Shown here one piece after another: positions 1-64,000 of a stretch of 64,000 bases of DNA (its first letter is position 1; the number at the start of each line of letters is the position of its first letter). The translations under genes were made by a program, and so were the position numbers. The notes under the pieces were generated by a model. It did no database searches and had not been told where the DNA came from. It saw only the letters and a program-made list of their open reading frames with translations. Origin of the DNA: Ascaphus truei (lineage: Eukaryota; Chordata; Amphibia; Anura; Ascaphidae); NCBI GenBank assembly GCA_036426205.1, contig WSYH01001190.1, positions 2,874 through 66,873 on the forward strand, written 5' to 3'.

Positions 1-439
1 AAGCAGAGGGATACCGGCACCCCCTAAAGGGGGCTGTATCTCAGGGATCAGGGGGTTCCCAGACCTGAAACCAACGCGGTTCAGCTCCAGAGACCCCCTG
101 CACATCTACACTATCAATAAAAATGTATTTCAAATAATTTTTAATGTGCGGATGTTTGCGCAGAGAGAGAGCAGCGGATCTATCTCTGCTGCAAACACAT
201 CTCGCCCCCGCCGCCCATACAGTAGTATCATTTATGTATGTGCATATACAGTACTGTATGTGTACAGTACTGTATGTTATGGCTTATAGGGGTTGTTGTT
301 ATACAGTATATATACTATATAGCATTGAATAGTACTATATAGCATTGCAGCCTATTAAATCCTGATCATTATCATTTAACAGATCAGGCCCCCGTCAGCC
401 AGGCATGAACCGTGGCTGGGAAGGCAAACGCAACGCGGC
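1..439. other. Noncoding stretch with footprint-like 7-mers
   Basis: No gene is visible. A C/G-rich opening (1-110) is followed by AT-rich DNA. Positions 241-310 hold two back-to-back copies of TACAGTACTGTA and a further TACAGTA. These belong to the window-wide footprint class described in the findings. Confidence 0.6.
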
Positions 440-834
440 TTGTCAGAGGTGAGGAGCGGCGCATTCCAGGTATCTGCCAGGTACAAACTGGGCATTTGCT
501 CGAATAAAGTGTGTCGCAGCAGTATCACTGATCACCAAGTGTTCACCGGTGAGCTGGGACCTCTGCATAAGAATGCCTATCGGGTATCAGCAGAGGTGAT
601 GGGCAGTATAGAGAGGGAAGTAGAGGATATGCTGGCCCTAGGGGTAATTATACCGTCCCAGAGCCCTTGGGCTTGTCCGGTAGTTCTAGTACCTAAGAAG
701 GACGGGACCACCACTTCTGTGTAGGCTACCGGCAGCTCAATGCAGGAACTGTTTCAGATGCTTATCCCATGCCCCGCATGGACTAACTGTTAGATGAGTT
801 TGTGGGGGCAAAGTATCTGACCACTATGGATCTG
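440..834 (+). pseudogene. Ty3/gypsy retrotransposon reverse transcriptase, N-terminal part (broken)
   Basis: From about base 525 the translation reads as the start of a Ty3/gypsy reverse transcriptase: an AYRVS segment, then EVEDMLALGVI and SPWACPVVLVPKKDG, which match the family's conserved SPWASPVVLVPKKDG block. The frame is lost near 720 (a stop after the KKDG block). It resumes in another frame with a YRQLN-like segment and a PMPR segment, ending at TTMDL. An inserted sequence then splits the domain at 834; the next block, SKGYWQIPL, continues at 1474. Bases 495-517 resemble the terminus of the MITEs at 29954 and 62708, so the upstream part may be MITE-derived. Non-functional relic. Confidence 0.8.
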
Positions 835-1473
835 TGAAAAAGGGTGGTTTTAGGCTCTCCTATACAGAGTGTGTAACAGTGCTAAAATGAAATACCATAA
901 AATACAATCACTAAGAGGTATATACAGTGCACTAGTTAACTTATATAAGTGAAAGTGCAAATGTGTATAATAAATAAAGTGAAAGATAAAGTGAAAAAAT
1001 CGCTGCTCAACCCTATGAAGAAAAGATCCAAATTTCCTCTAGACGATTTGTATAGGTAGCTTTGGGGAGCGCAGGTTTCACCATATGTGGAATGAAAATA
1101 TAATATTCATAGTGTAATACTGTATGTTCCAAAAATGTTGCTAATTTCTAGGTTTCAGCAAAATGGGGACTCACACATTCTCAGACAACAGACAGCAATT
1201 TCCACACAGATGTGGCTTAGGATATCCAAACTTCTATACTCAGGTAGGTGGATGGCAGTGGTCTCAGATGTTTCCTCAATAGGACAAAGATAACACTTTA
1301 GTGCAACATTGTTTGTGCAATAAAGAAATATATTAAAAAACAAATGGTATTATACTCACATGAGTAAGGTGTAGCATGGACACATAAAACTAAAGCTGAG
1401 TGGCTTGTTCGGCAGCTCCGTTGCTCATGGTCAGATCTCCAAATTTGCCAGGTATGCGTCTCGTCACTTGGAA
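835..1473. mobile_element. 639-bp insertion inside the gypsy RT, flanked by a 12-bp direct repeat
   Basis: The 12-mer ACTATGGATCTG occurs at 823-834 and again at 1474-1485, and the gypsy reading continues across if the segment between is ignored. That makes 835-1473 an insertion with a 12-bp target duplication. I see no terminal inverted repeat and no coding capacity, so the class is unknown. It carries one TACTGTA motif near 1113. Confidence 0.65.
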
Positions 1474-1835
1474 ACTATGGATCTGAGCAAAGGGTATTGG
1501 TAGATCCCGCTGACCCAGGAGGCTAGGGAAAAGTCCGCATTCATTACTCCAAGTGGCCTCTATGAATTCTTAGTGATGCCATTTGGGATGAATAATGCTC
1601 CGGCTTCCTCCTTCCAACGTCTGGTCAATAGGTCACTGGAAGGGATGCGGGTTTCGCATGGGCATACATGGACGACATTGCAGTATTAAGCGGGACAGTC
1701 ACCTAGTTCATGTAGCAGTCGTGCTAAGTAGAATTAGGGAAGCAGGACTTTGTGAGTACCTACCAGTCAAGGACAAGGGCTCCTACAGAGGTCATTTTTG
1801 TGAATTTCATTTAGAAGATAGATTTATTCGTTAGC
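1474..1835 (+). pseudogene. Ty3/gypsy reverse transcriptase, middle part (broken)
   Basis: Continuation of the RT from 440-834. In shifting frames the sequence reads DLSKGYWQIPL, then [12 protein letters not shown] and [17 protein letters not shown], which are the conserved gypsy RT blocks around motifs A and B. Frame changes occur near 1590 and again before 1690. The catalytic YxDD block is not intact. No LTRs were found for this copy, so it is a fragment. Confidence 0.8.
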
Positions 1836-1899
1836 GCCGTTCCCAGTAAGTGTGTTAACCCTCTAAATTATGTTACATTGTTTGTATGTCTTTTCAGGA

Positions 1900-2890
1900 A
1901 ATAAATTACAATTTATTTTACTTCAATCAATGATCCCAGTATAAAAAGGTGTTAATAAACTTGGTATCCCGTGACAGATATTAATCTGTCTTCACAATGG
2001 CACTGCATTGTAGCCAGCCACACTAAGCACCTGAACAGTTGCTATGACAACCAAAACGGTATAAAGGGGTTGATATACACGCGATCAAGCCCACCCCGGA
2101 TAAAGAAGTCAGAATGACGAAACGTACGTCAGGTCAGCAGGCATTGTTTGCTTGTGCAAGCAATGTTTTTTAAACCACATGAAGTTCTCAATGTTTAACA
2201 AATCAGAGTAAAGGCGTCTGTTCAAGTCACACTCTGAGCAGCTATTTGGATTCCTGAATTCACGATAGGATACTTTAAAGCCTAAACAATAGGGTTAGCC
2301 GGCATTTTTTGTGCTAGCAATGTCTTAAAATTAAAATAATGCCAAGGTTTATTAAGTCAGAGCAAGTCAGAGCAAATGCGTCTGTTCAAGACACACCTTA
2401 ACTGGTTACATGGATCTCGGAGTTCACGATACAGTAGGTCACCTTGAAGCTTATATAACCTTATATTTATTAAGAGTATAAGAAGGAGCTTTATACCTGC
2501 TACATATATAATTTCAAACGACATCATATGGAGCAGTAATTACCAACGGCTGAATCAATCAGCCTGGGGTCACTTAGCTCAGCATGAACGGCGTGTGAGT
2601 AACAACAGAAATTTTGTTAAGCCTTATTTATACAAAATCATGAGGTTACCTAAAGACACAACGGTTGAGTTTCTCCATGTGTAATAACGGAGCATAAAGT
2701 GCTTGTTTAAGTGGTAACCACACTATATACACTCATGATCACACAGAAAGAGCGGGCTATACTAATCAGGCTGATATCACGTTTAACAACAAACGGCGTG
2801 CTAGTGACAATAAAGGCTGTAAATACTCACTCCAGAGGCTACATTATGATTTATATATTATACGGAGCATAACGTGCCTAAATTTACTAA
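1900..2890. repeat. Diverged tandem/interspersed repeat units
   Basis: Several segments recur with differences. A unit containing GCGTCTGTTCAAG and a TTCACGATA block occurs at about 2210-2275 and 2385-2450. A second unit (GTGTAATAACGGAGCATAAAGTGC, 2680-2703) recurs diverged after the L2 insertions at about 5500-5525, so the L2 pieces interrupted this array. The second copy of the TTCACGATA block has an extra CAGTA after GATA (2430-2436). Confidence 0.5.
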
Positions 2891-2899: not shown

Positions 2900-3352
2900 A
2901 AATGGAACCTCTTCTCTTTTCTCTGTACACACTCTCTCTAGGTGACCTAATAACATCTCTTGGGTTTAAATATCACCTCTATGCTGACAACACACAAATT
3001 TACTTTTCAACACCCGACCTTACACCTGCTGTACAAACCAAAGTTTCTGAATGTCTCTCTGCTATATCATCCTGGATGGCCCTCCGTCGCCTTAAACTCA
3101 ACATGGAAAACAGAACTCCTCATACTTCCTCCCAAATCTGGCCCTACTACCTCCTTCCACATTACTGTTGGAAGTACGATCATTCACCCAGTAGCCCAAG
3201 CACGCTGCTTAGGGGTCACACTGGACTCCTCTCTCACATTATCCTCTCACATTCAAAACGTTTCTATAACCTGTCGCTTTTTCCTCCGCAATATCACTAA
3301 GATTCGCCCGTTCCTCTGTTGCTCGACTGCTAAAACTCTGACTCAGGCCCTC
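2900..3352 (+). pseudogene. L2-type LINE, RT fragment (copy A)
   Basis: It begins inside the RT with [14 protein letters not shown], passes through a YADN version of the catalytic YADD box and continues in a second frame with [14 protein letters not shown] and [10 protein letters not shown]. It stops abruptly at about 3352 and is joined directly to an upstream portion of another L2 copy. The element order is therefore scrambled: a 3' RT piece precedes linker sequence. Frameshifted and dead. Confidence 0.85.
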
Positions 3353-5485
3353 CTCTACTCGTTCCTCTGAACGCCTCTGAAGGAAATCTCATACTCTCGC
3401 AGACTTCCTTCACTACAAATTTATGCTTTCCTGTTTCAACTCTGCCCTCTTTCAGCCTAAACAAACCTAGTTTTCTTCACTAATCAACATGCACAAGTCT
3501 ATTCCACACCGACTCTTCCCTGTCTTTGACAATCTACTCAGACCACCCTCGGCTGCCTCCTTTTCTTCCTCCATCTCACCTCAGGACTTTGCTGACTATT
3601 TTAAGGTGGAATCCAAATGTCAGAACATCCCCTCTGTTGCCTCCTCCCATCCCACACCGCTTCCTAACTCTCCTCCTTCCTTCCTTGACTCTTTTTCCGC
3701 TGTCTCGGTGGAGGATGTGTCACTGCTGATCTCCTCTTCTCCCTTTACCAATTGCCCTCTTGATCCCATTCCCTCCCATCTCCTAAAACCTCTTGCTCCT
3801 TCTATAATACCTACGCTCACACAGATTTTTAATTCTTCCCTCTACTCTGGTACCTTTCCCTCTCCTTCAAACATGCAACAGTTATACCATTACTCAAAAA
3901 TAGCAAGCTTGACCCAACCTGTCTTTCTAACTATCGACTTGTCTCCCTCTTGCCTTTTGCCTCCAAACTCCTTGAACGTCTTGTATTCTCTCGATTGCTA
4001 CATTTTCTCAACACCTATTCTCTCCTAGACCCTCTACAATCTGGCTTCCGCACTGCTCATTCTACTGAAACAGCCCTCACTAAAATAAGTAATGACCTCC
4101 ATGCTGCCAAAGACAGAGGTCATTACACTCTGCTCATACTGTATTACTCAACCTCTCTGCAGCATTTGACACGTTAACTAACCTTTTCTCCTTCACATTC
4201 TCCATACTCTTGGTATTCGTAACAAAGCTCTATCCTGGATCTCCTATTACCTCTCATATCGTACTTTCAGTGTCTCTTTTGCTAACACCTCCTCCTCCTC
4301 TGCCTCCTCCTCTATCGATCTCTCTTTGGGGGTACCCCAGGGTTCTGTCCTGTGACCTCTTCTCTTTTCTCTGTACACACTTTCTCTAGGTAACCTAATC
4401 ATATCTCTTGGGTTCAAATATCACCTCTATGTTGACGACACACAAATTTACTTTTCAACCCCTGACCGTACAGACCAAAGTTTCTGAATGTCTCTCCTGG
4501 ATGGCCCTCCACCGACTTAAACTTAACATGGCAAAAACAGAACTCCTCATACTTCCTCCCAAACCTGGCCCTACTACCTCCTTCCAAATTACTGTTGGAA
4601 GTACCATCATTGACTTAGTAGTCCAAGCACACTGCCTAGGGTCACACTCGACTCCTCGCTCACATTCGCCCCTCACATTTTTCATCCGCAATATAACAAA
4701 GATATGCCCTTTCCTCTGTAAGTCGACTGCTAAAACTTTGACTCAGGCCCTCATTCTCTCCTGTAACCTCCTGCTGTCCGGTCTTCCTGCCTCTCACCCA
4801 TCTCCCCTACAATCTATCCTAAACGCTGCTGTCAGAATCAATCTACTCTTTCCTAAATCTGTCTCAGCGTCTCCCCTGCTGAACTCACTCTCTTGGCTTC
4901 CTATCAAATCTCGCATCTCGCACTCAATTCTCCTCCTCACTTTTAAACCTTTACACTCTTCTGCTCCTCCTTACATCTCATCCCTAATTTCTCGTTATGC
5001 TCCAGCCCGACTCCTGCGTTCTGCTCAAGGATGTCTTCTCTCTACCCCTTTGTATCTACAGCCCTCTCCCGCCTTAAACCTATATCACTGACTGCTCCAC
5101 ACCTCTGGAATGCCCTGCCCCTCAATACTCGACTAGCACCCTCTCTATCCATCTTTAAGGTCCACCTTAAGACACACTTGCTTAAAGAAGCATATGAGTT
5201 GCACCGTGGCTAATACTATACAGGATACATAAAGCTTGGCCCCCCTGCAGACGCACTTACCAGAATGCCCTCCTACTGTCTTTGTACGTTTTTCCCACCA
5301 ATTAGATTGTAAGCTCTTCAGAGCAGGGACTCCTCTTCTACAATACCTTTATGTCTGAAGCACTTATTCCCATGATCTGTTATTTTTATTATTTGTTATT
5401 TATATGATTGTCACATGTATTACTATTGTGAAGCGCTACAGTATGTACATTAATGGCGCTATATAAATAAAGACATAGATACAAT
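3353..5485 (+). pseudogene. L2-type LINE, 3' half (copy B)
   Basis: Linker and RT of an L2-clade LINE in several frames: [50 protein letters not shown] (YADD changed to YVDD) and [11 protein letters not shown], then the C-terminal region ending near 5213 and a short 3' UTR. The tail has the diagnostic GCGCTATATAAATAAAGAC but with five extra bases, so that it reads GCGCTACAGTATGTAC at 5434. The other copies read GCGCTATGTAC. Multiple frameshifts show it is inactive. Confidence 0.9.
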
Positions 5486-7360
5486 GGTCGAGTACCTCTA
5501 TGTGTAATAATAGAGAATATAGTGCTTGGTTAAGTGATAACAACAATATAAAGTGCTTAAACAATTGGCGGTGATCAGAATCCAGACAACCACGACCAAA
5601 TAGGAACATCGGCTGCACTAATCAGGCTGAGATCATGCTCAGCTCTGCAAAAACTATGTACTGTATAAGGAACAACATACTGTAAACATTGACAAATACA
5701 GTATACCCTAACCCTAGAGGGTACATTACAGGCACCAATTAAATAACAAACAGAAGACAAGTACAAATACAGTATGTGCACCAGTTCTATCCCCATCACT
5801 CATTAAGGGCTGAGTACCCTTGGGCAAAATAAACGAAACACGGAGTGTTCAAATTGACTCATGGTGATCGCTGAGTGAATAAGAGCAATTAACACTAAGG
5901 GCTCAACAAAGGAAGTGGGCAATGAATAAATATAGCTCAGAATTAAATGTCCCACAGTAACAAAACCTATACATCAATCATGATACATTCTGGATGTTTA
6001 ACCTCACCACTGCCGGTAATGGATAGATGATACAAGATAAACATCAGTTAGAATATCAACATCGTTATGATACAAGGGCCCAATAGATTATTGTCATAAT
6101 TTGATACATTAGGTATCAAAGCCTACCAACAGGGATCTAAATGTTAATGTATGTAACAGTATAACAACAGCAACCAATTTAGGTCGGGCAACGACTTGAA
6201 GTACCAGTGCATTTAGTGTTTTCATAGACACTATATCTATAAACTTGAGAAAGGTATAGTGAAAGGGTTAACATGCGACGATCAATGGAGGCCGTGTTCG
6301 GAACTGCTAGCAAACTACACATGATAAAATGAACAGTAGCGTCTACGCGGGACGTAAACAAATAATAAATCAGTGAGCTTTTTCCTGGTAGTCAACAAGA
6401 AGAGTGTTAGCCTGGATCCAGATGAACGAACAAATATGCCAAATTCAAAGGTTAATACTATTCCATATGTCTAGAATTAGAGGTTAAATAAAATAAAACT
6501 ATTGCTGCCATGATCTAAGTGGAAACATACTTGCATAAGACACAAAGATATTATCCAAGTACTCAACTCAAGTAGTAACTAAAGGAGTTAAGACTACTCT
6601 ATGCGCTATGAAGCACTACACTGAAGCTTAGCTTCATTGTATCACACTTAAAAGTCTATTCAACAAGACATAAATAGGAATTGCATTCTTACATGTTACC
6701 ATTTAGCTTTGTATCAGGCTATTTACCATCACTGTAGCAAAACCCAGATTATCACCAAGACCCTACACAGGAAATATACTCTGTTTGTTCTTTAGATCAA
6801 TCACTCTCTATAGCCCTACAGATGTAGCGGCCCTTATTTTAACAAATCACTGTGCCGTTTTTGTGTGCGTGGCTGTACTCCACGTGGCATGAGCGCGGCC
6901 AATTGCCCAAGGCACACGTGTTTAGCGCGCTTGCTTTGTTTGAATTTTATGGATTGTGTGCAATTATATGCAATGAAATGAATGAATTGTAATGTGTACA
7001 GTACTGTGCTACTGTGCTACTGTGTCAATTTCAGGTGTTTAAAAGCCAGAACATTAAAATGCCATTTTATGCACTCGTCTGCACTCGCGTCTAAAGGCGG
7101 TATGGTTGGAAGACATCCCGCGCCATGACATGGGTATTCCGAGGTATACACTGCGTGATTTGTTAAAATAATGGCCGCTGCATCTGTATACTAGTGTATA
7201 CTGCCTATTAACCTAGCAAGGTAATATATATACATCTCTCCATTTATTATGTGTTATATATATCTCTATAGATCTTATCTTAATCTATCTATATCTACTA
7301 TATATATATATATATGATATAGACACACAGTTATACCGCTGCACGCCAATGATGAAAGTT
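5486..7360. other. Noncoding DNA with repeat remnants
   Basis: No coding region was recognised. The first ~150 bases continue the tandem repeat interrupted at 2890. TACTGTA/TACAGTA motifs are dense at 5657-5776. Around 6830-7150 there is a more CpG-containing patch, and 7220-7315 is TA-rich simple sequence. Confidence 0.5.
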
Positions 7361-8399: not shown

Positions 8400-9945
8400 A
8401 CTGTACATATGCTACACTTTCTCAACACCTATTCTGTCCTAGACTCTCTACAATCTGGCTTCCGCACTGCTCACTCTACTGAAACAGCCCTCACTAAAAT
8501 AACTGACGACCTCCACGCTGCCAAAGACAGAGGTCATTACACTCTGCTCATATTACTCGACCTCTCTGCAGCATTCGACACCGTGGACCACCCTCTTCTC
8601 CTTCACATTCTCCATACTCTTGGTATTCGGAACAAAGCTTTATCCTGGATCTCCTCGTACCTCTCCCATCGTACCTTCAGTGTCTCTTTTGCTAACACCT
8701 CCTCCTCTATTGATCTCTCTGTGGGGGTACCCCAGGGCTCTTTCCTGGGACCCCTTCTCTTTTCTCTCTACACACTCTCTCTAGGTGACCTAATCACATC
8801 TTTTGGGTTTAAATATCACCTCTATGCTGACGACACACAAATTTACCTTTCAACCCCTGACCTTACACCTGCTATATAGACCAAAGTTTCTGAATACCTC
8901 TCTGGAATATCATCCTGGATGGCCATCCGCCGACTGAAACTTAACATGGCAAAAAAAGAGCTCCTTATACTTCCTCCTAAACCTGGCCCTACTACCTCCT
9001 TCCACATTGCTATTGGAAATACGATCTTTCACCCAGTAGCCCACGCACGCTGCCTAGGGGTTACACTTGATTCCTCACTCTCATTCTCCTCTCAAATTCA
9101 AAATGTTTCTAAAATTTGTCGCTTTTTCCTCCGCAATATCACAAAGATACGCCCTTTCCTCTGTTACTCAACTGCTAAAACTCTGACTCAGGCCCTCATT
9201 CTCTCACGTCTCGATTACTGCAACCTCCTGCTGTCCGCCTTCCTACCTCTCACCTGTCTCCCCTACAATCTATCCTAAACGCTGCTGCCAGAATCACTCT
9301 ACTCTTTCCTAAATCTGTCTCCGCATCTCCCCTCCTGAAATCCCTCTCCTGGCTTCCGATTAAATCACGTATCTCACACTCAATTCTCCTGCTCACTTTT
9401 AAAGCTTTACTTTCTTCTGCCCCTCCTTACATCTCAGCACTAATTTCTCGCTATGCACCATCCCGACTCTTGCGTTCTTCTCAAGGATGTCTTCTTTCTA
9501 CCCCCTTTGTATCTAAAGCTCTCTCCCGCCTTAAACCTTTTTCACTGTCTGCCCCACATTTCTGGAATGCCCTTCCCCTCAATACCCGACTACCCCCCTC
9601 GCTATCCACCTTTAAGACCCACCTTAAGACACATCTGCTTAAAGAAGCATTTGAGTAGCACTGGATAATCATGGACACATGACACATAAAGCTTGTCCCC
9701 CTGCAGACGCACTTACTAGTATTCCCTCCTACTGTCTCTGTACGTTCTCCCTACCTACCAATTAGATTGTAAGCTCCTCGGAGCAGGGACTCCTTCCTTA
9801 ATGTTACTTTTACAGTATGTCTGAAGCACTTATTCCCATGATCTGTTATTTATATTATTTGTTATTTATATGATATGTATTACTACTGTGAAGCGCTATG
9901 TACATTTATGATGCTATATAAATAAAGACATACAATACAATACAT
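8400..9945 (+). pseudogene. L2-type LINE, 3' half (copy C)
   Basis: The best preserved L2 RT in the window. An open frame from 8391 to 8879 holds [27 protein letters not shown] (motif A), [16 protein letters not shown] (motif B) and YADDTQIY (catalytic motif C). A stop at 8877 and a frameshift near 9240 kill it. The C-terminal domain continues to 9655, and the 3' end carries the AAGCGCTATGTACATT and ATATAAATAAAGACATAC tail. At 9811 it has TTTTACAGTATGTCTG where copy D (15090) has TTTTATGTCTG, a clean 5-bp insertion. Confidence 0.92.
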
Positions 9946-11619: not shown

Positions 11620-12230
11620 TTCATTACCTTATCAGCTAACCGCTAATGTAATAAAAAGGTTAAAAAGCAGGCACTGCTTTGTTGTTGGTACAGGGGGTGG
11701 GTGAAGCTTGCTGTTCCCCCAGGGTGGGTGTTTAGGCCCTGCAGGAGGGTGGCAGAAGATGTTAACCCCTTCATTACCTTAGCGGTTTCAACTGCTAATG
11801 TAATGAAGGGTTAACCCCTTGTGCTACCCTATCGCAAGGCCTAAATACCATCCTTGGGTGAGTACCACCTCCACCCACTCCCTGTACCAAAAACATGAAT
11901 GGGTAAAAGTACTATTAACCAAATGGCACTTTTCCCCATTCAAAAAAAAACATTACAGTGCAATACATAAGTAAAACAACCCAACCCCCCCCAAACCCCA
12001 ACACATACAGTACAGTAATGGGCAAAATAACTATTACCCAGATATAGATAACAGTGCATTGGCCCATTAAACATAAAACCAGCCAGGTAATTAAAGTTGC
12101 ACTTAACCCTGCAAGGACCTCATATTCCTCCTCGTCGTCTGTGCAGCAACATTACAGAAAAAAAATCTAATGGCCACAATCCCTTAATCACCTTAGCGGT
12201 TAGTAACCGCTCTAGTAATTAAAGGGTTAA
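11620..12230. repeat. Palindromic TTAACCC-CATTACC-AGCGGTT repeats
   Basis: Short hairpins around 11758-11818 (TTCATTACCTTAGCGGTT with its complement) and 12180-12230, with a diverged half near 11625-11665. A further copy lies at about 50430-50468. Each is a 40-60 bp near-perfect inverted repeat with a few-base loop, so they form a dispersed palindromic family. Confidence 0.55.
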
Positions 12231-13706: not shown

Positions 13707-14262
13707 GATAACAGATGACCCATTGAAATACAGTAAGTGACATCCCGCTTTCCGTTAAAGCAACAGAAACTCCGTCTAGATATGCGAACAACGGCGGAGG
13801 ACTGGCTCATCGATATGCTGGGCTAATTTACAAGCAACAAGTCCGTTTTGACCTGTATTACTGATGCAGCCACGAGTATCCGAACACTTGCCTGGGAAAA
13901 TCTGGGGCAATACCCCAGTAATGCTCCAACATTTCTGTGACATTTCTGCAGACAGACTAATGGCCCATCGGATTACAGATTACAGATAACAGATGATCAA
14001 TTGAAATCCAGTAAGTGACATCCCGCTTTCCGTTAAAGCAACAGAAACTCCGTTTAGATATGCGAACAACTGCGGAGGACTGAGTCATCGATATGTTGTG
14101 CTAATTTACAAGCAACATGTCCGTTTTGACCTGTATTACTGATGCAGCCACGAGTTTCCGGACACTTGCCTGGGAAAATCTGAGGCAATACCCCAGTAAT
14201 GCTGCAACATTTCTGTGACATTTCTGCAGACAGACTAATGGCCCATCAGATTAACACAGCGG
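13707..14262. repeat. 278-bp tandem duplication
   Basis: GATAACAGATGA at 13707 recurs at 13985, and the following ~270 bases match closely in both units (GTAAGTGACATCCCGCTTTC, TTTGACCTGTATTACTGATG). The two units differ at scattered sites. The second runs straight into the palindrome centred at about 14287. Confidence 0.85.
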
Positions 14263-14440
14263 GGGTCCCTGGCAGTCCCATTCAAACTGAATGAGACTGC
14301 CAGGGACCCTCGCTTTGTTAATCCGATGTGCCATTAGTCTTTTTGCAGAAATGTCACAGAAATGTTGCAGCATTACTGGGAGATTGCCCCAGATTTTCAA
14401 ATGCATGTGTTCGGATACTCGTTACTGCATCTGTACCAAT
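14110..14440. repeat. Fold-back repeat, family FB-A copy 1
   Basis: Nearly perfect inverted repeat centred at about 14287. The left arm ends CCCTGGCAGTCCCATTCAA and the right arm begins ACTGAATGAGACTGCCAGGG. Further out, CATTTCTGTGACATTTCTGC pairs with its complement, and TGCAGCCACGAGT pairs with ACTCGTTACTGCA. Related palindromes lie at 56941-57205 and 58640-58840. Confidence 0.8.
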
Positions 14441-14474: not shown

Positions 14475-15224
14475 AGCTCCCGTCTTGATTACTGTAACCT
14501 ACTGCTGTCCGGCCTTCCCGCCTCTCACCTGTCTCCCCTACAATCTAGCCTAAACGCTGCTGCCAGAATCACTCTACTCTTTCCTAGATCTGTCTTAGCA
14601 TCTCCCCTCATCAAATCCCTCTCCTGGCTTCCGATCAAATCCCGCATCTCACACTCCATTCTTTTCTTCACTTTTAAAGCTTTACATTCTTCTTCCTCTC
14701 CTTACATCTCAGCCCTAATTTCTCGTTATGCACCATCCAGACTCTTGCGTTCCTCTCAAGGATGTCTTCTTTCTACCCCCTTTGTATCTAAAGCCCTCTC
14801 CCGCCTTAAACCTTTTTCACTGACTGCCCCACACCTCTGGAATGCTTTTCCCCTAAGTACCCGACTAGCACCCTCTCTATCCACCTTTAAGACCCACCTT
14901 AAGACACACTTGCTTAAAGAAGCATATGAATAGCACTGTGGATATTTTGAACACATGATACATAAATCGTGGCCCCCTGCAGACGCACTTACCAGAACTC
15001 CCTCCTACTGTCTCTGTTCGTTCTCCCTACCTACCAATTAGACTGTAAGCTCCTTGGAGAAGGGACTCCTCTTCCTTAATGTTACTTTTATGTCTGAAGC
15101 ACTTATTCCCATGATCTGTTATTTATATTATCTGTTATTTATTGGACTACCACAGGTATTACTACTGTGAAGCGTTATGTACATTAATGGCGCTATATAA
15201 ATAAAGACATATAATACAATACAA
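14475..15224 (+). pseudogene. L2-type LINE, 3' end (copy D)
   Basis: Severely 5'-truncated L2, starting within the C-terminal domain (LDYCNLLLSG-like region). It continues through the RSSQGCLLSTPFVSKALSRL and HLWNAFPLSTRLAPSL blocks to the end of the ORF near 14930. The 3' UTR and the GCGCTATATAAATAAAGACATA tail follow. It serves as an uninserted comparison for the 5-bp insertions in copies B and C. Confidence 0.88.
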
Positions 15225-35720: not shown

Positions 35721-36484
35721 GACAGCGATAGCACCACAATAAATAATGGATTGACTTTAATATTTTAATTATTATAATAAATATGATATAATAATCCAAA
35801 ATACAAAGGGTATAAATTGATAATGATAACACCAAAAAGAACAGCAAAAATGGAAAATTAATGATTGAATATGAGAAGAGAAAAAGATATATACATGTAA
35901 AAACAAAAAAGAGGGGAAGAAATGAAAAAAAAAATAAGAAAAAAAGGCAGAAGAAAGATATAAAAAATAGAAAAGAAGGAACCACTATTTTATAAAAGAA
36001 AACTAACATTTTGTGCTGCAATGTACAATTTACAGTATATGCATCAATCATAACAATATAAAAAAAAACATCAATAGAGTTCAAAAGATTACAGATATAT
36101 AGAACTGTTTAGAGCACATATTTTTTAAACTGAAGAAGCAGCTGATAAATAAAACTCATAGAAAATGTAAAACAAATTCATAAAAAATTATGAAGTTCCC
36201 AGTCTATGTTAATACAATCTGGGATTAAAGTTTTGAGGGGGAAAAATCCAAAACATTTCTCTGCGATTTAATTGAGCCATCTTTTCTCCCCCTAATATGT
36301 GGGGGGATATGCTCTAGTGCTGAAAAATGGACATTTTTAAGATCCCCTAAAGGACAATTCGTCCAATGCCTAGATACAGGATATCTTAGATCTTTATCAC
36401 GCATTGATCTGATGCTCCATAATATGAGCCTTGAGCGGCCTGATGGTATGCCCAGGTAATCCTTGATCTTTAATTGTATTAGAT
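35703..36484 (-). pseudogene. Penelope-like element B, C-terminus and 3' region (minus copy)
   Basis: The minus strand reads GRSRLILWSI (frame-shifted GIY-YIG part), then LEHIPPHIRGGEKMAQLNRR and EMFWIFPPQNFNPRLY, the typical PLE C-terminus (RREMFWIF). The T-rich 3' region continues to 35703. It is the inverted counterpart of 41990-42420 plus 48296-48600. An open frame at 35704-36084 is part of this T-rich 3' region and is not a gene. At 36031-36037 it has TACAGTA where the other copy has only TA. Confidence 0.8.
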
Positions 36485-36552: not shown

Positions 36553-37087
36553 ATCCGATGACAATTCATCTTACGCTATTTTTTCATCTTTTGTGAGGTT
36601 TGTATGTTCTCCACTCTTTTTATAAGAAAGGGCTTCCAAATTTTTGGTCACTAATTGAAAGAAAACGTCCAGATGGTTTCCCTTGGCAAATTTAGGGAAA
36701 AACTGAGATTTCGGTCTAAATTTAGAATGTACATATTCTGGACTTCTCAATTCTGAAGTTGTAGGACTATCTGTACTGTTGTTATGTGTCTCATTCCAAT
36801 TTCTGGTTTCTGCTTCTTTGCTCATGAAAAATCTCTTTAAATCTCTTTAAGGTAAGTGACCTTAGGAATTTATGTGTATCTACATAAAGACCAAATTTAT
36901 TTGGTCCAATAGTGGGGGCAAAGGTAAGTCCCTTACTAATAACTTTATTTTGACTGGCTGTAAGGATTTTCTTGCTGATATTAAAAATATTTTTATTTAA
37001 TAAAGTTTTCGTGTTTTTCCGTGTTCTACCCCCTCGTCTCCCTCTGACATGCGTCTTTTGTTTCTTGGTTTTGTGCTTGGAGAACAT
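36553..37087 (-). pseudogene. Penelope-like element A, inverted N-terminal portion
   Basis: The minus strand reads from MFSKHKTKKQKTHV through NISKKILTASQNKVISKGLT and FAPTIGPNKFGLYVDTHKFL, then LEALSYKKSGEHTNLTKDEK. This is the PLE N-terminal region that normally precedes the RT. A 10-bp tandem duplication (ATCTCTTTAA twice, 36831-36850) breaks the frame. The last 60 bp (36553-36612) are the inverted duplicate of 37079-37138 with two differences, so the protein continues on the opposite strand at 37079. Confidence 0.85.
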
Positions 37088-39025
37088 ACAAACCTCACAA
37101 AAGATGAAAAAATAGCGTTAGATGAATTGTCATTGGATACAACAATTGTAATAAAACCAGCAGACAAGGGAGAGGGTGTAGTTATCATGGACCACAGCTA
37201 CTATATGCTGGAGGCCAATAGAATCTTGGGTGACACTAATACTTATCAAAAACTCAAAAATAACCCCACTACCCTTTACAAAAAAGAATTACAATCTCTG
37301 TTGGAGGATGGGAGAAGACGGGGAATATTGGAAGAATATGAATTTCAATTCTTAAATGTGGAGGACCCAATATTCCCCGTCTTCTATTTCCTACCTAAGA
37401 TACACAAAGATCTCATGCATCCCCCTGGAAGACCAATAATCTCCGGTATAGGATCTCTGACGGCGAATCTATCAGAGTTTGTAGATAGCTATCTACAAGA
37501 GATTGTTAAAAAACAGAAATCATATCTAAAAGATACTACTGATGTAATTCTACTGTTAAGTGACATCCAATGGCAAGACAACTACATACTGGTCACCACT
37601 GATGTGACAGCTCTGTACACATCAATCAAACATGTGGATGGATGCAGAGCTGTCAGGCTATTTCTGGAAAAAGAGGGAAATATTCCCAACACACAAATAG
37701 AATTTCTAATTAAATGCATTGAATTTGTTCTGAATAGGAACTTCTTCTGGTTCTGTGATGACTTCTTTTTACAACTGTGTGGGACCGCCATGGGGACCAA
37801 ATTTGCGCCCAGTTACGCCAATCTTCTTATGGCAATGTGGGAAGACCAATACATATGGTCTTGGATTGGTCTGGACGCAAATTTGGTCACATGGCGGAGA
37901 TATATAGATGACATTCTCTTCGTGTGGAAAGGTACGGTAGAGGATCTTAATATATTTCTTCTGTACCTAAATAATAATGAACTCAATCTAAGGTTTACAT
38001 CCACCTTTAGTGCCTCTTCCGTGAACTTCCTTGACCTAACCATTTATTTAGAGGACAACATCATTAAAACCAAAAACTATTTCAAAGATGTGGATGCCAA
38101 TAATTACATCTTACAGTCAAGCTGCCATCTCAATAGGTGGATTACAAATATCCCATATGGCCAATATCGACGTCTTAAACGTAATTGTTCAGACAACAAT
38201 GTGTTTAAAGAACAATCGGTGGTACTATCGAGGAAGTTCAGGGAAAGACGATATAAAGAGGATGTCATCAAAAATGCTTTGGAAAAAACTGTAAATACTA
38301 CAAGGGAATCAATGCTGAAACCTTCAGTTAAAAACCCACCCAGTAACAGTGTTCATGTGCCATTCATTACACAATACAACAGGGATGCATATAAGATCAA
38401 TAATATCCTCAACTCACACTGGTCTATATTAAAGAATGATCCCATTATTGGAAAACATCTACCAGATAGAGTTAAAATGTTGTATAGAAAAGCTCCTAAT
38501 ATCAAAAATTTTGTGGCCCCTAGTGCCTTACGAAGACAAAATAAATCTAAATACACTGGCTGGTTAAACCCCTTGAAAGGATTTTTTAGTTGCAAAATGT
38601 GCACTGCTTGCCACTATAGTTCTATAATTACTAACAGTTTCAAATCGCATGCTACACAAAAAACTTATAATATAAAACAGCATCTCAACTGTAGATCTAG
38701 CTATGTGATTTATCTCATTGAGTGCGAGTGCGGTCTTCAATATATAGGGAAAACCATCCGCCCCCTAAAGACACGCATTTTGGAACATATTGGCAACATA
38801 AAAAAGAAACTCACAACACATAGTGTTTCTAACCATTTTTTATTAGTGCACAACTCAGACCCTAAGGGGTTAACTTTTAAAGCAATAGAGCAAGTCATGT
38901 CACACTGGAGGGGTGGCAATAGACATTCAGCTCTCCTTAAGAGAGAATCATTTTGGATGTTTGAGTTGCAAACCATGTCCCCCTCTGGTCTGAACTTAGA
39001 ATTTGATATCAAACCATTTTTATAA
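37079..39025 (+). CDS. Penelope-like element A: reverse transcriptase + GIY-YIG endonuclease ORF
   Basis: A 648-codon uninterrupted frame. Its first credible residue is the G of GEHTNL at 37079; the ATG at 37049 lies in antisense of the inverted N-terminus and is spurious. Numbering from 37049: IKPADKGEGVVIM (residues 33-45), YFLPKIHKD and PPGRPIIS (112-130), motif A VTTDVTALYTS (D185), motif B AMGTKFAPSYANL (about 247), catalytic YIDD (285-288) and NFLDLTIYL (about 330). A C-x2-C-x2-C segment (C515, C518, C521) leads to the GIY-YIG nuclease YVIYLIEC (552) and YIGKT (565), ending RESFWMFELQTMSPSGLNLE. PLEs retrotranspose by target-primed reverse transcription. All key RT residues are present. 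It contains no TACAGTA motif and looks young, but it lacks a co-linear N-terminus, so it is probably not autonomous. Confidence 0.95.
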   Translation, partial: GEHTNLTKDEKIALDELSLDTTIVIKPADKGEGVVIMDHSYYMLEANRILGDTNTYQKLKNNPTTLYKKELQSLLEDGRRRGILEEYEFQFLNVEDPIFPVFYFLPKIHKDLMHPPGRPIISGIGSLTANLSEFVDSYLQEIVKKQKSYLKDTTDVILLLSDIQWQDNYILVTTDVTALYTSIKHVDGCRAVRLFLEKEGNIPNTQIEFLIKCIEFVLNRNFFWFCDDFFLQLCGTAMGTKFAPSYANLLMAMWEDQYIWSWIGLDANLVTWRRYIDDILFVWKGTVEDLNIFLLYLNNNELNLRFTSTFSASSVNFLDLTIYLEDNIIKTKNYFKDVDANNYILQSSCHLNRWITNIPYGQYRRLKRNCSDNNVFKEQSVVLSRKFRERRYKEDVIKNALEKTVNTTRESMLKPSVKNPPSNSVHVPFITQYNRDAYKINNILNSHWSILKNDPIIGKHLPDRVKMLYRKAPNIKNFVAPSALRRQNKSKYTGWLNPLKGFFSCKMCTACHYSSIITNSFKSHATQKTYNIKQHLNCRSSYVIYLIECECGLQYIGKTIRPLKTRILEHIGNIKKKLTTHSVSNHFLLVHNSDPKGLTFKAIEQVMSHWRGGNRHSALLKRESFWMFELQTMSPSGLNLEFDIKPFL

Positions 39026-48295: not shown

Positions 48296-48603
48296 AATAT
48301 ATAGTTAGATTGATGCATATAAATTGTACTTCACCTCAAACTGTTAGTTTTCTGTTATAAATAGTGGTCCTTTCTTCTTTTCTATTTTTTACTGTATATC
48401 TCTCTTTTGCCTTTTTTTCTTATGTTTTTGTCTTTTCTTCCCCTCCTTTTTTTCTTAAATGTATATAACTTTTTCTCATGTTTAATCATTAATTTTCTTT
48501 TTTTTGCTGTTCTTTTTGGTGTTATCAATTTATACACTTTGTGTGTTGGATTATTATATCATATTTAATTATAATAATTAACATATTAAAGAAAATCTAT
48601 GCT
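48296..48603 (+). mobile_element. Penelope-like element B, distal 3' region (continuation of 42420)
   Basis: Matches the minus-strand 3' region at 35703-36055 over about 300 bp (TTGATGCATATAAATTG, TCTTTTTGGTGTTATCA, TTGGATTATTATATCATATT). At 48390-48396 it has TACTGTA where the other copy has only TA, and at 48317 it has TA where the other copy has TACTGTA. Each copy is thus an uninserted reference for the other. Confidence 0.8.
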
Positions 48604-48862: not shown

Positions 48863-49255
48863 TATTCATACATACAGTACATATTATAGGATATACTGTA
48901 CTTGTGATATATGGTATTCATTTTGTTATTATTCTGCAGTATTTTGGGTTTTGTGTTTATTTGATTTTAGCACATTTTCCTTAGTTACTTTTAAGTAATA
49001 TTTCTTAGTTTAAATTTCAACTGTACTGTATTCAAGCGGTTAACACTATTTTAACCAAATAATGCCTTTTTGAAGTAATGACTTTGCGGTGTGCTGGGAG
49101 AATGTCCGTTTTTCCTTCTTTGTTGTTATCTGACTCATTGCTCTCACCTGAGCTATGGCGGCGGGGGCTTCCCACTGGCCTGCGAGTTGAAGCCTAGGTG
49201 TGACGGGTACTTCCTCAGCTCATACATATAGTAAGTAGTTTACCAAAGTAACTCA

Positions 49256-55710: not shown

Positions 55711-55711
55711 A

Positions 55712-56940: not shown

Positions 56941-57205
56941 ATGCAGCCACAAGTATTAGATCACATGCCTTGGAAAATCTGGGGCAATCTCATGTAAATG
57001 CTTCAACATGCCTCAACATTTCTGTGAAATTCCAAATGACCCCTTGGATTAACACATTCAAACTGAATGGGACTGCAGGGACCCCCCACTGTGTTAATCT
57101 GATGGGCCATTAGGAATATCACAGATATGTTGAGGCATTTACTGTGAGATGCCTTTGTTTTTACCCAGGCAAGTGATCGATACTGGTGGCTGCATCTTTA
57201 TGTAA
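56941..57205. repeat. Fold-back repeat, family FB-A copy 2
   Basis: Starts CAGATGCAGCCACAAGTATT and ends with the complement ATACTGGTGGCTGCATCT. The centre, near 57063, is ATTCAAACTGAATGGGACTG. Same family as 14110-14440, with more divergence between arms. Confidence 0.75.
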
Positions 57206-58639: not shown

Positions 58640-58840
58640 CTTGGAATTTCTGGGAGATTCTGGAGCAGTCTCACAGTAAATGCCTCAACATTACCCCAAC
58701 ATTTCTGTGAGATTCTTAATGGTTCATTGGATTAACACAGCGGGGGCCCCTGCAGTCCCATTCAAAATGAATGGGACTGCAGAGGCTCCTGCTGTGATAA
58801 TCCGATGGGCCATTAAGAATCTTTAGAGATAGATGGATAC
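58640..58840. repeat. Fold-back repeat, family FB-A copy 3
   Basis: Centre at about 58771: GCAGTCCCATTCAAAATGAA followed by TGGGACTGC. Outer arms carry TTAATGG...GGATTAACACAG and CTGTGATAATCC...CCATTAA. Shares sequence with the copies at 14110 and 56941. Confidence 0.75.
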
Positions 58841-58844: not shown

Positions 58845-60780
58845 CTCAAAAACCCCAAATGTAGGTAGCTGCGTGCCGCCTCATTAGTTGTTATATGTTA
58901 GCAATACTATACATGCAGTATCACACTACTGGCATAACATTAAAAGTAATTCGACTGTTGGCTAACCACCCACTGATAACGGAATAACATACAAAGTGCT
59001 GACTGCGTCACAAGCCGCCTTATAAACAAAACTAAATAGGGACAGCAGTTACTCTGTTCTATCTTTGACCAATTGTATCTCATATATCTTCATGTACTGC
59101 TGCGGCTCATCTGAGTCTAAAACATTGCCATTTTTTCCCTGGCTTTTTCCTGGAATGCGAAGCACTTCACCTGGAGCATGCCGCATTCCTTTTACGTTCT
59201 CAGCCACGGGTCATGCGCGGTTGACGCGCGGTTGATGCGTTTATTGAGAATGGTTCGGATTTAATAGGTTGCAATTCTTCGCGTGTCCGCCAGATGGCAG
59301 ATATTCATGAATTGTAATGCGCATGCGCTTCAGTAATTTGTCAACTTGCAGGTGTTTCGTTTAGAAAAGATACCACAGTGTGCTATTGTAACTTGGCCTT
59401 GAGACTGAAGGAAGAGGTTGCAAAAATTTATCAATTTAGGCTTTTCATATTAAAGAAAGACAAAGACCAGTTTCGGTTACAGTATTCTCCAGAGACCCGC
59501 CGCCCGCCATGAGTGTTCAAGTGCAGCCCGTTTTCCAAAAACCCGACAGAAGTTACGCGTATTTGATATGGGCCGCGATTAATGCAACACATGATAAGAT
59601 GGCAACAGTCAAATTTATCAGTATTTTATTGAAAACTATGACTTTTATAAATTTTCGCCAGCTCCTCATACGTGGAAGCGTGCAATAAGGAAAAGGTTAT
59701 GTAGCGATCCCTGTTTTTATTGTATTGAGCCACAATTTGTTGGAGGGTATTAGTGTGTATCACCGGCTTTTTCCTGTATCTATGATCATGCAGACGGCAA
59801 AAGGCAAAGGGTCGTGTTTAAACCAACTAAGAAACGACAGTCGCTGCCAAGCAATGCACCGGCACCGGCTTCCAATAACGGTCCCACCGTCAGTGACAAC
59901 CCTTGCTGTCTATCCAGAACGCCTGAGCCGGATTTCGCGTGCAGTTTCGATCAAGCTTGCATGTACCTATGCAATTTCCATCCTCATCAGCTGACTATAG
60001 GTGTAGTAGTCCCGCTGCCAACTATCGGCGTGGATGATCAAGAACACTGGACTGGCAATGGCCCAGCGCCAGCGCCAGTTGAATAGGAAATTCTATGGTG
60101 AGTATTGTTGCCGTATTATTTTCTGTGTTTTTTTTATTTTGACAATACAGTATGAATATCGGTGCGATTCAAAAGTCAAGCGATTCTCCTGTAGACAATA
60201 TCATTGGCTGAGCGGCTTCTACAGTACTGTACTGCAGATACTGAACAATTGGTGGAACGCTAGGCGCATGCGCATTGGAACCTTCTTGAAACGCATATGC
60301 GTGTCATTACATCGACGGTAGGCGCATGCGCATGTGAACAGGAGATGCCCCCCGAGAAAATTATTGGTGGGACTGGCTGGGAACTTCTTTAGGGGGCTGA
60401 CCATTACAGTAAAACTTTTCTTTTAGTTTTTCCTCAGAAAAGAAAACGGCTAATGGAGGGATTTCGATGGATAATATCGCTTTGAGTAACAATGCCTGCA
60501 CATTGCTGAATCGTATTTAAAAACCCACGTACCGGATTCTACTGTTTAGTGGCCGTTGTTATTGATTAGGATAGAATACTGTACCTGAAACAGTACAGTA
60601 TGCTGATGTTTTCCGGCCGTACAGTATACAATACTTTTTTATATACAGTATACTGTGTAATGAACCCCAAAAAATAAAAACTATGCATTTATTCTACACG
60701 TAGTACTGTACATACAGTATGTGTCTTCTATACAGTGCCAGTACATACAGTACAGTACAGTATGTGGTGAAAAAAATTAA
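58845..60780. other. Noncoding DNA with dense TACAGTA motifs at its end
   Basis: No gene was recognised; short open frames at 59725-60320 have no family resemblance. 60580-60770 is exceptionally dense in TACAGTA/TACTGTA, including TACAGTACAGTACAGTA in one run. Confidence 0.5.
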
Positions 60781-61999: not shown

Positions 62000-62700
62000 G
62001 TGTGTTTGTCCTTTTTTTGGCTATTATGCCTAATAAATAATTCATTTTTTGCATCAGGCCCCCTTTTTTGATTTTCCTCTTTTTGGCAGTGCTCTACTCC
62101 TTCACTATGTTCCTGAAAGGCATAATGAGTTTTTGGAACGATGTACTCACCGTGGAACGCTGCAATAAATATATAGACCATATTGCCACTGTGTTGCCTA
62201 TTGTGATCGTGCGTAATGGGCAAGCATCAGGAAAGTAGTACTGTGCTGTAGTATTGTAAGTACAGTACAGGTAAGTATGGCACAGATTTTTTCTTTCCCA
62301 ATAGTCAGAGTATACAGTAGTTACAGTTTTTTCTTTACAGAGAGAGCAGCACTAGCCATCAGGTTACAGTACATAGTATTTAACAGTAGTCAGAGTAAAC
62401 AGTAATTCCAGTATAGACTAGTTTGACAGTACAACAGTAACTGCCTACTAACTGCTCAATTTTTTTCTTTCCAGAGAAAGCAGCACCAGCCATGTACAGT
62501 AGTACTATACAACACACAATGCCATAATACAGTACGCACATAACTGCACTAATTTTTTGTTTTCTTGTCGTTTTAGGAAAAAAAGGGTGGCCTGGGGGGA
62601 GGTGGGGTGTTGTGTCCAGTATAATCTGTTTGTACAGTCAAATGTACAGTATATAAACAGTAGTAATGATGTACACAAAACCTCTCCTCTCTCAATGAAC
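62000..62700. other. Noncoding DNA with footprint-like motifs
   Basis: No gene was recognised. TACAGTA/TACTGTA motifs recur at 62264, 62312, 62369, 62495, 62527 and 62645. A block containing TTTTTTCTTT, then CAGAGA(G/A)AGCAGCAC and AGCCAT, appears twice (62325 and 62462), a ~137-bp tandem repeat. Confidence 0.5.
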
Positions 62701-62707
62701 TACTGTA

Positions 62708-63067
62708 CTGCTGCGGCCGAGTTTATTCGAGCATTTGCCCGTTCTCGGCCGCAGCAGTAACCTGGCGCGCGCCGGAGGGTGCCGGGCGCGCGTCGAAGCA
62801 GCGGAAGAGCGCCCTCCGATCGGGGCGCTCTCCCTCCCGCTGCCGGGTCCGCCGGGTCCCCCGGAACCCCCTGCTGCCGTCCCCCACATCGCGGGACACC
62901 AGGGCTCCCTCGGGGAGCCCTGGACGCGCGTGCAGGGGGCGCTGGCACCCGATGACGCGTGACCACGCATCGGTGATGCGCGGCACGCTGAGGGAGTGCG
63001 GCTCGCAAGCCGGGACATTTCCCGGCTTGCGGAATGAGCCGCACTAGGATAAAGTGTGTCGATAGTG
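62708..63067 (-). mobile_element. MITE of the CTGCTGCGGCC family, copy 2 (360 bp)
   Basis: Inverted copy of 29954-30314, with TA on both sides (62706-62707, 63068-63069). It contains the same terminal hairpin (CTGCTGCGGCCGAG) and the internal hairpin AAGCCGGGACATTTCCCGGC. A TACTGTA overlaps its left TA (62701-62707), consistent with insertion at a TA of an older footprint. Open frames inside are mirror-image GC-rich artefacts. Confidence 0.78.
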
Positions 63068-63109
63068 TACACAGAATGAGGAACAAGATAAAGACGGAAA
63101 AAATAATAT

Positions 63110-64000
63110 TACTATATATATATATATACTAGCTGAGAGACCCGACGTTGCCCGGGATGTAATGTTCCCGCTCCTCTCTCTCTCCTCTCTCCTCCAAACC
63201 CGCGCACACACCAACGTGACTGACGCACACGCACCCTACACACCCTGACTGACGCCAACTGTCGCACACACCCACACTGACTGACCATGCCCACACTGAC
63301 TCAGTGCACCGCACAACCCCATGACAGCCGTCACGCCAACGCCACACAAACCCATTGAAAGCCACCGCACACACACCCTTACGCACCACACACAACACCA
63401 CTGAACTCTGACCACTGACTACGACTCACACACCCACACAACACCCACTGACTGACACGACGACTGAACTAACACACACACACACTGACTGACACCACAC
63501 CACACGCCAGCACGACTTACAACACACTCACTGACACCTACCACACCACACACTGACTGACAACACACTACTGGATACCCATGACTGACACACACAATGA
63601 CACCAACACAATGACTATGACACGACACACTGACTGACACACACACTGGACCTGACGCGATGACCTGCGCCACACACCCCCCCCCCACACACACACACAG
63701 TGACGAAGGACAAGCCACACACACACACACTGATACTGCCGCCAACACAAAAAACGCACACACCCTGACTCTGACGCGCCCACGAACACTGACTGCCGCA
63801 CACACACACTGACTGAGGCCACACCCACGCACACCTGACTGAGGCACCCCCGCACACACTGACTGTTGTGCGTGTGTGCTTCAGTCTGTATGTGTGTGTG
63901 TTTGTGTTTCGCATTCAGACTCACTGACGCGCGCACGCACACACCAGTGACTGACTGACACCACACACACATGACTGAGACGCACACACACATACTGCAT
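63110..64000. repeat. CACACTGACTGAC low-complexity tract
   Basis: After a TATATA run and CTAGCTGAGAGACCCGACGT, the sequence consists of imperfect CACACTGACTGACACAC words to the window end, with an inverted GTGTGTGTG patch near 63870-63905. Minus-strand open frames rich in Val/Cys/Ser are translations of this repeat and are not genes. Confidence 0.8.

Follow-up and report, generated by a model that had tools for sequence, protein, structure and literature searches.

Most TACAGTA and TACTGTA words in a 64-kb stretch of the Ascaphus truei genome are probably excision footprints of Tc1/mariner-type transposons

In a window of 64,000 bases (the whole stretch of DNA analyzed here) the heptamers TACAGTA and TACTGTA, hereafter TACWGTA, occur 64 and 42 times, i.e., 106 times by exact count. 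Drawing on comparisons within this sequence, we propose, with a probability of roughly 0.88, that most of these words are excision footprints of Tc1/mariner-type transposons with CAG/CTG ends. Since 11–15 of the 106 words can be put down to chance, the best explanation is the presence of about 90–95 canonical 3-nt footprints in 64 kb, or one per about 680 bp. Excision footprints are already known; what may be new is their natural density in this window.

An earlier note on this DNA had claimed about 100 such words against roughly ten predicted from base composition; the exact count makes the case stronger than claimed, with a computed compositional expectation of 11.4. The Markov-model count that it had called for gives expectations of 9.6, 14.6 and 19.5 for the first, second and third orders, the observed number being 7–11 times that predicted by the second- and first-order models, respectively. 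Models of orders 2–4 trained on the window with the words collapsed to TA predict 11.1–11.8, and dinucleotide shuffles yield 9.45 +/- 2.89 words with a maximum of 17, none of 100 shuffles reaching 106. When the 7-mer classes of the window are ranked by z-score under the second-order model, TACWGTA comes second and (TA)n first. The singling out of CAG/CTG among TANNNTA words also held up: the other 31 classes all stay at or below 2.6-fold in the window, and there is no such enrichment of TANNNTA in general. The skew of TACAGTA over TACTGTA (64:42) is mild (P=0.04).

The mechanism that we favor would run as follows: an element inserts at a TA, which is duplicated; the transposase then cuts three nucleotides inside each end to leave CAG 3' overhangs; and the host joins the broken ends, with the middle A.A mismatch being resolved to CAG or CTG. 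A plain TA would thereby become TACAGTA or TACTGTA regardless of the orientation of the element, and each cut-and-paste move repaired by such joining would leave one permanent footprint.

This mechanism predicts that related sequences lacking the event should carry a plain TA. The earlier note had proposed comparing TA with TACWGTA in related frogs; we ran the comparison on repeat copies inside the 64-kb window rather than on orthologues, and it came out in favor of excision. At thresholds of at least 70% identity, at least 60 bases and E up to 1e-8 (166 alignments), 91 of the 106 sites have no comparable copy, whereas 15 are spanned by one; in 7 of these 15 the copy is shorter by exactly 5 bp and reads plain TA, as against 0/75 other TANNNTA sites (Fisher P=9e-7). 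An exact 5-bp gap lies in or beside 9 of 1963 other 7-base tiles. The distinct 5-bp insertions number eight, of which six were scored as TACWGTA by script and 49020/49024 was added by eye, and 0/166 insertions of lengths 1–4 and 6–15 between copies start at TACWGTA. Because the compared site is TA in a sister copy in 7/15 cases, most TACWGTA words are likely to be excision scars. The relevant sites are:

4137..4143, + strand: TACTGTA scar in an L2-like LINE reverse-transcriptase frame; the sister copy 8471-8633 has TA, with an exact 5-bp gap
5437..5443, + strand: TACAGTA scar; TA in sister copies at 52045, 15096 and 9823
9811..9817, + strand: TACAGTA scar; TA in sister copies at 15007 and 5275, with a third copy at 51966 showing a 16-bp gap
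36031..36037, + strand: TACAGTA scar; TA in the sister copy 48252-48406
48390..48396, + strand: TACTGTA scar in the copy 48252-48406; TA in the 36-kb copy
48894..48900, + strand: TACTGTA scar; TA in a sister copy near 33.7 kb
49024..49030, + strand: ambiguous TACTGTA scar; TA in a copy near 33.6 kb, with a 5-bp tandem duplication as the alternative
2430..2436, + strand: TACAGTA; a diverged copy at 2199-2289 (70% identity) is short by exactly 5 bp, found by looser matching only and outside the 7/15
14490..14496, + strand: TACTGTA as LINE coding sequence (DYCN) common to 51451; background, not a scar

The sites at 36031 and 48390 form a reciprocal pair, each copy being scarred where the other has TA. 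At 4137 the scar breaks the reverse-transcriptase frame, LSAAFDT resuming in another frame downstream, while the sister copy is open there; hence, at this one locus, it is the longer variant that is derived. The other eight of the 15 spanned sites lack a clean empty site: at 13729, 15885 and 33654 the copy has the same word or a one-base variant, at 15867 it carries another TACWGTA-type word opposite, the words at 14490 and 51451 belong to LINE coding sequence, 21878 looks like background and 33364 is ambiguous. Looser matching (E up to 1e-3) finds some local match for 29 sites, with a clean gap in 8/29; among the others are several weak or local-duplicate matches, and 15588, 15593 and 15621, outside the 7/15, match only at this cut-off and without clean gaps.

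The immediate flanks of the words point the same way. For 80 of the 106 sites, those isolated by more than 14 bp, the folded flanks read TRT in 23/160 cases against 5.9% at other TAs (P=7e-5) and YRT in 33/160 against 8.9% (P=5e-6), the control TAs excluding those near (TA)4 runs or near TACWGTA words. The flanks show the AT-palindrome target preference known for Tc1-type elements; for ZB, a palindromic AT repeat is reported at the targets and said to resemble those of Sleeping Beauty (SB) and Bari (PMC7913693).

Only the full 3-nt footprint form stands out in the window. The trimmed and 2-nt forms are close to expectation (TACTA 121 vs. 106.4; TACATA 75 vs. 66.8; TAAGTA/TACTTA 26 vs. 33.9), which is compatible with small numbers of them, 0-nt products and messy outcomes being invisible to a word count; similarly, TACGAGTA occurs 0 times vs. 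0.6, TACCATA 7 vs. 10.0 and TATCATA 16 vs. 15.1. The Tc1 of C. elegans (TACATA type), Minos (4 nt) and Mos1 belong to the same superfamily and share the TA target, with footprint forms of their own. Unlike TACWGTA, the Tc1-type 2-nt, Minos-type, Mos1-type and trimmed words show no marked excess in the window. Contrasts with known elements count against our reading: ZB leaves 0–3 bp behind in cells, a range described as similar to that of SB and Frog Prince (PMC7913693), the pogo-type Passer leaves 0–4 bp (PMC9976928), and the rice excisions discussed below are mostly messy, whereas in the window no form but the 3-nt one is prominent.

Candidate donors with the appropriate ends reside in the same genome. 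CAG/CTG does adjoin TA at 30720, 36513, 48629 and 62708, as the earlier note had pointed out, and 6817-7188 provides a better, two-ended example of a TA-flanked, CAG/CTG-ended element. Clear two-ended elements of this kind number two in the window, a third (11689-11886) being doubtful:

6817..7188, no strand assigned: two-ended MITE, possible donor type, TA-CAGATGYAGCGGCC(A/C)TTATTTTAACAAATCAC ... inverted copy -TA, with 32-bp inverted ends and 2 mismatches
13859..14435, no strand assigned: fold-back repeat, second possible donor type, with ends TA-CTG/CAG-ATGCAG

We infer that the first of these or its kin may have been the source of the scars. None of ten window frames scanned against Pfam is a transposase, and tRNA and Rfam scans of the window returned nothing. 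A LINE probe found no match in viral contigs and, in prokaryote contigs, 73 pattern stretches of which 0 were confirmed.

Among the alternatives, the one that survives best concerns only the identity of the element: the footprints might come from CAG-ended elements of the pogo/Tigger type or of another IS630-Tc1-mariner branch, rather than from Tc1 proper or a Sleeping Beauty relative. These branches share the TA target, the end at 36513 (TACAGCTAAACCCCG) is by eye not SB-like, and the footprint range of Passer given above would fit; nothing decisive speaks against it, as a 3-nt CAG footprint alone cannot separate the branches. We regard this as a credible, if somewhat unlikely, variant.

It is less probable still, although worth weighing, that the layer is a local peculiarity, i.e., a region often hit through local hopping in an otherwise ordinary genome. 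The spread is indeed uneven (variance/mean 3.1 in 2-kb bins), with 21 of the 106 words in the last 4 kb (60-64 kb) and 3 in 36-48 kb, and about 80% of remobilized SB copies in X. tropicalis are reported to have re-integrated within 3 Mb (PMC3271037). Against this, 15 of the 16 4-kb bins lie above the local expectation, and the lowest bins are young-looking or GC-rich sequence. Such young-looking sequence also speaks for the excision reading: across seven intervals of this kind, a set picked post hoc with the word map already known, there are 0 TACWGTA at 405 TAs against 9.5 expected (P=8e-5), these counts skipping TAs inside (TA)4 or longer. Two word-free features are:

37004..39025, + strand: open 673-aa Penelope-like frame with a GIY-YIG domain, 0 TACWGTA; its best relatives are from Ascaphus truei
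34458..35717, no strand assigned: 1.26-kb element with nearly perfect inverted ends, 0 TACWGTA

A further three alternatives dispense with excision altogether, and each appears very improbable. In the first, the word would belong to an abundant repeat, as a conserved part of its end or interior, and the excess would simply tally the copies of that repeat. Resident elements do begin with TA-CAG or TA-CTG, and there are three context groups of two sites each; however, there are 103 distinct 28-base contexts among the 106 sites, hence the sites do not share one longer repeat, and we reject an origin from a single repeat. Moreover, beyond 3 bp the flank composition approximates background, apart from one slight deviation at base seven (chi-square 9.0, 3 df), and the sister copies are short by precisely 5 bp at the seven sites above. 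With the count far from the Markov expectation, the TANNNTA words not enriched alike and no longer consensus behind the motif, the earlier note's reading of the excess as a Tc1/mariner excision record is supported.

Equally remote is a regulatory or structural motif under selection, such as a protein binding site. Its clustering and near-palindromic form would suit such a motif, but binding motifs usually tolerate neighboring words, and of the 20 single-substitution neighbors (its own mirror excluded) the highest reaches only 2.23-fold; besides, repeat copies differ by exact TA/TACWGTA pairs, and the scars lie within decayed LINE copies, one of them breaking the frame.

The third invokes micro-insertions, slippage or templated polymerase error that generate CAGTA/CTGTA units, and bears on the clustered words:

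60146..60762, + strand: densest TACWGTA cluster, 13 words, including TACAGTACTGTA at 60220 and the triple TACAGTACAGTACAGTA at 60746
247..274, + strand: two TACAGTACTGTA doublets within a 16-bp tandem repeat (247-277)
12006..12017, + strand: TACAGTACAGTA doublet

The TACAGTACAGTA doublets and the one triple resemble a 5-bp tandem repeat, a tandem duplication would also account for 49024, and the second TACAGTACTGTA doublet may have arisen from the first by local duplication, since both lie inside the tandem repeat at 247-277. Nevertheless, doublets at a spacing of 5 exceed chance (9 observed vs. a simulated mean of 2.25 and a maximum of 6 in 200 simulations), which we count in favor of excision; 5/9 are inverted pairs (one of the five being that possible duplicate), which slippage alone does not make; 58 of the 76 clusters are lone words with the next TACWGTA more than 40 bp away; other TANNNTA units show no such enrichment; and at six unambiguous loci single-unit empty sites occur without a neighboring donor unit. 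Slippage hence fails for single units and inverted doublets, and is scarcely credible as a general source. Under the excision reading, the densest cluster likely reflects one TA used repeatedly.

The closest known system is Sleeping Beauty, whose 3-nt 3' overhangs are joined end to end (PMC7827188). In cultured cells and mouse tumors it leaves TAC(A/T)GTA, the same seven letters in both forms with the same TA anchoring as in the window (PMC3432063, PMC4378557). Its events are, however, induced, with 153, 139 and 8 estimated actual footprints in three tumor samples (PMC4378557), as against the ~90-95 putative natural germline scars here. Natural, TA-anchored Tc1/mariner-type footprints have likewise been recognized through empty sites for a Stowaway MITE in a Triticeae beta-amylase intron, but there a single locus bears five different putative footprints, which comprise TA...GTA and longer end fragments, in contrast to one uniform 3-nt word at ~90 putative loci (PMC1925063). 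Paired sites in two rice genomes also yielded excision scars: the 94 putative excisions, drawn from polymorphisms covering >63% of the two genomes, are mostly messy, with deletions or filler and only 8 perfect, whereas those of the window are dense and clean (PMC4423477). A frog genome paper has 'excision' 0 times and uses 'footprint' for tandem repeats only (PMC10794172). We found no natural footprint density of this level in the open-access literature, which is weak evidence of absence as most subscription journals lie outside it. In mouse the word falls roughly once per 9 kb. It is reported at >300,000 places in that genome (PMC4378557).

Decay neighbors of TACWGTA exceed the third-order expectation by 49 (control sd 26.5); this amounts to only ~1.9 sd, and hence we give no date for the scar layer. 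At face value, the neighbor excess would correspond to ~7% divergence per site.

In the publications covered here, excision footprints were examined one locus at a time, as induced events or as thinly scattered polymorphisms. Since each move so repaired would leave one permanent footprint, the ratio of footprints to resident copies would serve as an odometer of past moves. A bolder extrapolation, which we advance tentatively as somewhat short of an even bet, is that scars outnumber residents tenfold or more and exceed 1 million per Gb genome-wide in this early-branching frog lineage; Tc1/mariner-type moves in its germline would then long have been mostly clean cut-and-rejoin, perhaps under a purging transposase kept by the host, with the scars a readable odometer of every move. 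If the layer is genome-wide, it would: (i) make the scars the commonest non-microsatellite 7-letter excess, so that past moves rather than just surviving copies could be counted; (ii) gauge germline breaks joined end to end against those repaired from the sister; (iii) allow bursts to be dated by which repeats bear scars; (iv) define a recognizable class of 5-bp frameshifting insertions otherwise missed by repeat annotation; and (v) warn that the 7-mer background of such genomes is far from random.

By exact count, the plus strand of the 64-kb window holds 64 TACAGTA and 42 TACTGTA words, together 106 copies of TACWGTA (W being A or T), where base composition predicts 11.4, Markov models of orders 1, 2 and 3 predict 9.6, 14.6 and 19.5, and 100 dinucleotide-preserving shuffles average 9.45 (sd 2.89; maximum 17). 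The by-eye estimate of the earlier note, about 100 copies against roughly ten by composition, is thus borne out. Models of orders 4 and 5 trained on the raw window raise the expectation to 37.6 and 78.1; we take these values to be inflated by the word's own pieces, because training on the window with the words collapsed to TA gives 11.1–11.8 for orders 2–4. CAG and CTG stand alone: the remaining 31 TANNNTA classes (TA, another triplet, TA) reach at most about 2.5-fold over first order. The strongest of the 20 single-base neighbours of TACWGTA are TATAGTA (2.2-fold) and TACATTA (2.0-fold), as expected if a fixed word decays, though with a summed excess of only about 1.9 control standard deviations.

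Derivation of the excess from one longer repeat is ruled out: grouping by 14 bases on each side places the 106 sites in 103 context groups, the only pairs being 247/252, 14490/51451 and 15621/15885. Past the third base the flanks resemble those of other TAs in composition, apart from a slight deviation at position seven. The spread is uneven (variance/mean 3.1 in 2-kb bins), with TACWGTA above expectation in 15 of 16 4-kb bins; the final 4 kb of the window contain 21 words. The stretch 44001-48000, with 57% GC and open frames on both strands, is without the word.

The central evidence comes from empty sites, i.e., sister repeat copies with plain TA opposite TACWGTA. Self-alignment of the window gave 166 alignments at identity of at least 70%, in which seven of the eight distinct 5-bp insertions are TACWGTA opposite TA:

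4137, 5437, 9811, 36031, 48390 and 48894: TACWGTA versus TA, scored by script
49020/49024: TACWGTA versus TA, added by eye, alternatively readable as a tandem duplication
35873: the eighth insertion, unrelated to TACWGTA

In the same alignments, none of the 166 distinct insertions of 1-4 and 6-15 bp starts at TACWGTA; a 16-bp gap adjoining 9811 includes the same scar (our term for a putative excision footprint). The TA-versus-TACWGTA comparison proposed earlier, made here between repeat copies within the window, finds the exact 5-bp gap at 7 of the 15 copy-spanned words (out of 106) versus 0 of 75 spanned TANNNTA words of other sequence (Fisher P=8.6e-7). The spanned words that lack a clean empty site are:

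13729, 15885 and 33654: common to the copy, exactly or with one change
15867: opposite another TACWGTA
14490 and 51451: LINE codons for DYCN
21878: opposite AACTGCA
33364: ambiguous

Looser matching gives a local match at 29 sites and a clean 5-bp gap at eight; 2430 is the addition to the seven above. Between the 36-kb and 48-kb copies the relation is reciprocal: each carries one scar opposite TA in its partner.

The direction of change can be read at one locus, 4137, within an L2-like reverse transcriptase frame. Here the frame stops after the scar region and the LSAAFDT motif resumes in a different frame, whereas the sister copy reads uninterrupted inside a frame matching RVT_1 at E=8.9e-24; judged from this broken frame, the 5 bp are therefore a gain, not a loss. 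At the other six loci gain would follow by analogy, and at 5437 also from TA in three empty copies.

Some sites appear to have been re-used. Nine TACWGTA doublets have spacing 5, against a mean of 2.25 and a maximum of 6 in 200 simulations placing 106 scars on TAs:

TACAGTACAGTA: four doublets, two of them inside the single triple 60746-60762
TACAGTACTGTA: four doublets
TACTGTACAGTA: one doublet

Five of the nine are inverted pairs, an arrangement not explained by slippage alone; two of these lie inside the 16-bp tandem repeat 247-277, and hence one may be a copy of the other. The flanks are also target-like: at 80 isolated sites (160 folded left and right flanks), TRT follows TA in 23 versus 5.9% at other TAs (P=7e-5), and YRT in 33 versus 8.9% (P=5e-6). 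For insertions of the ZB transposon, an AT-repeat palindrome centred on TA is described and likened to those of Sleeping Beauty (SB) and Bari (PMC7913693).

SB cleaves three nucleotides within the element, and the resulting 3-nt 3' overhangs are reproduced in the end-joined footprints (PMC7827188), which read TAC(A/T)GTA (PMC3432063). Such a cut with end joining would account for the word, for both its orientations and for the lack of any marked excess of 1-, 2- and 4-nt forms among word counts in the window. The scars are, however, oddly clean compared with the variable footprints of ZB (0-3 bp in cells, likened to SB and Frog Prince; PMC7913693) and Passer (0-4 bp; PMC9976928), and with rice, where perfect excisions numbered 8 of 94 (PMC4423477). 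As messy repairs are invisible to a word count, the real excision total may be larger.

CAG-ended and CTG-ended elements would leave the identical word pair, and resident elements of this kind may be the source. Local elements do have these triplets adjoining TA, as the earlier note claimed, with the three single ends listed here among its examples:

6817-7188: two-ended element, 32-bp inverted ends starting CAGATG with 2 mismatches, TA flanking each end
13859-14435: fold-back repeat, CTG/CAG-ATGCAG ends adjoining TA
30720 and 48629: single ends, TA-CTGTCGCGG
36513: single end, TA-CAGCTAAACCCC

An inverted-end scan (20-base ends, at most 4 mismatches, at most 2.5 kb apart) added just two pairs with CAG/CTG at both ends: 11689-11886, which is G-rich, and the scar cluster 60220-60762 itself. 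The ten window frames scanned include no transposase. The fold-back repeat is fused to a 278-bp tandem pair (13706-14435 overall); its relatives lie at 56937-57200 and 58650-58815. A GC-rich element that terminates in a CTGCTGCGGCCGAG...CTCGGCCGCAGCAG hairpin is present twice, in opposite orientation, at ~29990-30315 and 62708-63045. C-rich units, of a CCCCCTGCACATCAC type and a related type of 22 bp, form minisatellite-like arrays at two far-apart places, 53150-53966 and 24972-25261.

Seven young-looking intervals comprise elements whose inverted arms match at 94% or more and:

34458-35717: 1.26-kb element with near-perfect inverted ends (GGGGCTGAATAGGGCAG...)
37004-39025: open Penelope-like frame, 673 aa, GIY-YIG domain

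They hold no TACWGTA at 405 TAs against 9.5 expected (P=8e-5), which is suggestive only, since the set was picked after the map was known. The Penelope-like frame is likely a young copy. Among the best 120 of 2713 matches to it, Ascaphus truei proteins are the top four (the first 73% identical across 61% of the query), followed among named matches by frogs, e.g., Leptobrachium and Pelobates. Judged by this one mobile element, the host of the window is likely an early-branching frog.

For this window the earlier reading of the words as excision footprints holds. Subtracting 11-15 chance words from 106 leaves about 90-95 scars, one per ~680 bases; in the mouse the word occurs roughly once per 9 kb. 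Extrapolated from these 64 kb alone, and if the window is typical, there would be about 1.4-1.5 million scars per gigabase. The mouse genome is reported to hold more than 300,000 TACWGTA words (PMC4378557). While the TAC(A/T)GTA footprint itself is textbook, what is new, as far as our literature search shows, is its density, its uniformity and its likely value as an odometer of transposon moves. Several decayed L2-like LINE stretches (~2900-5100, 8391-9658, 14457-14933 and 51310-51894) could serve as an internal clock for the scars.
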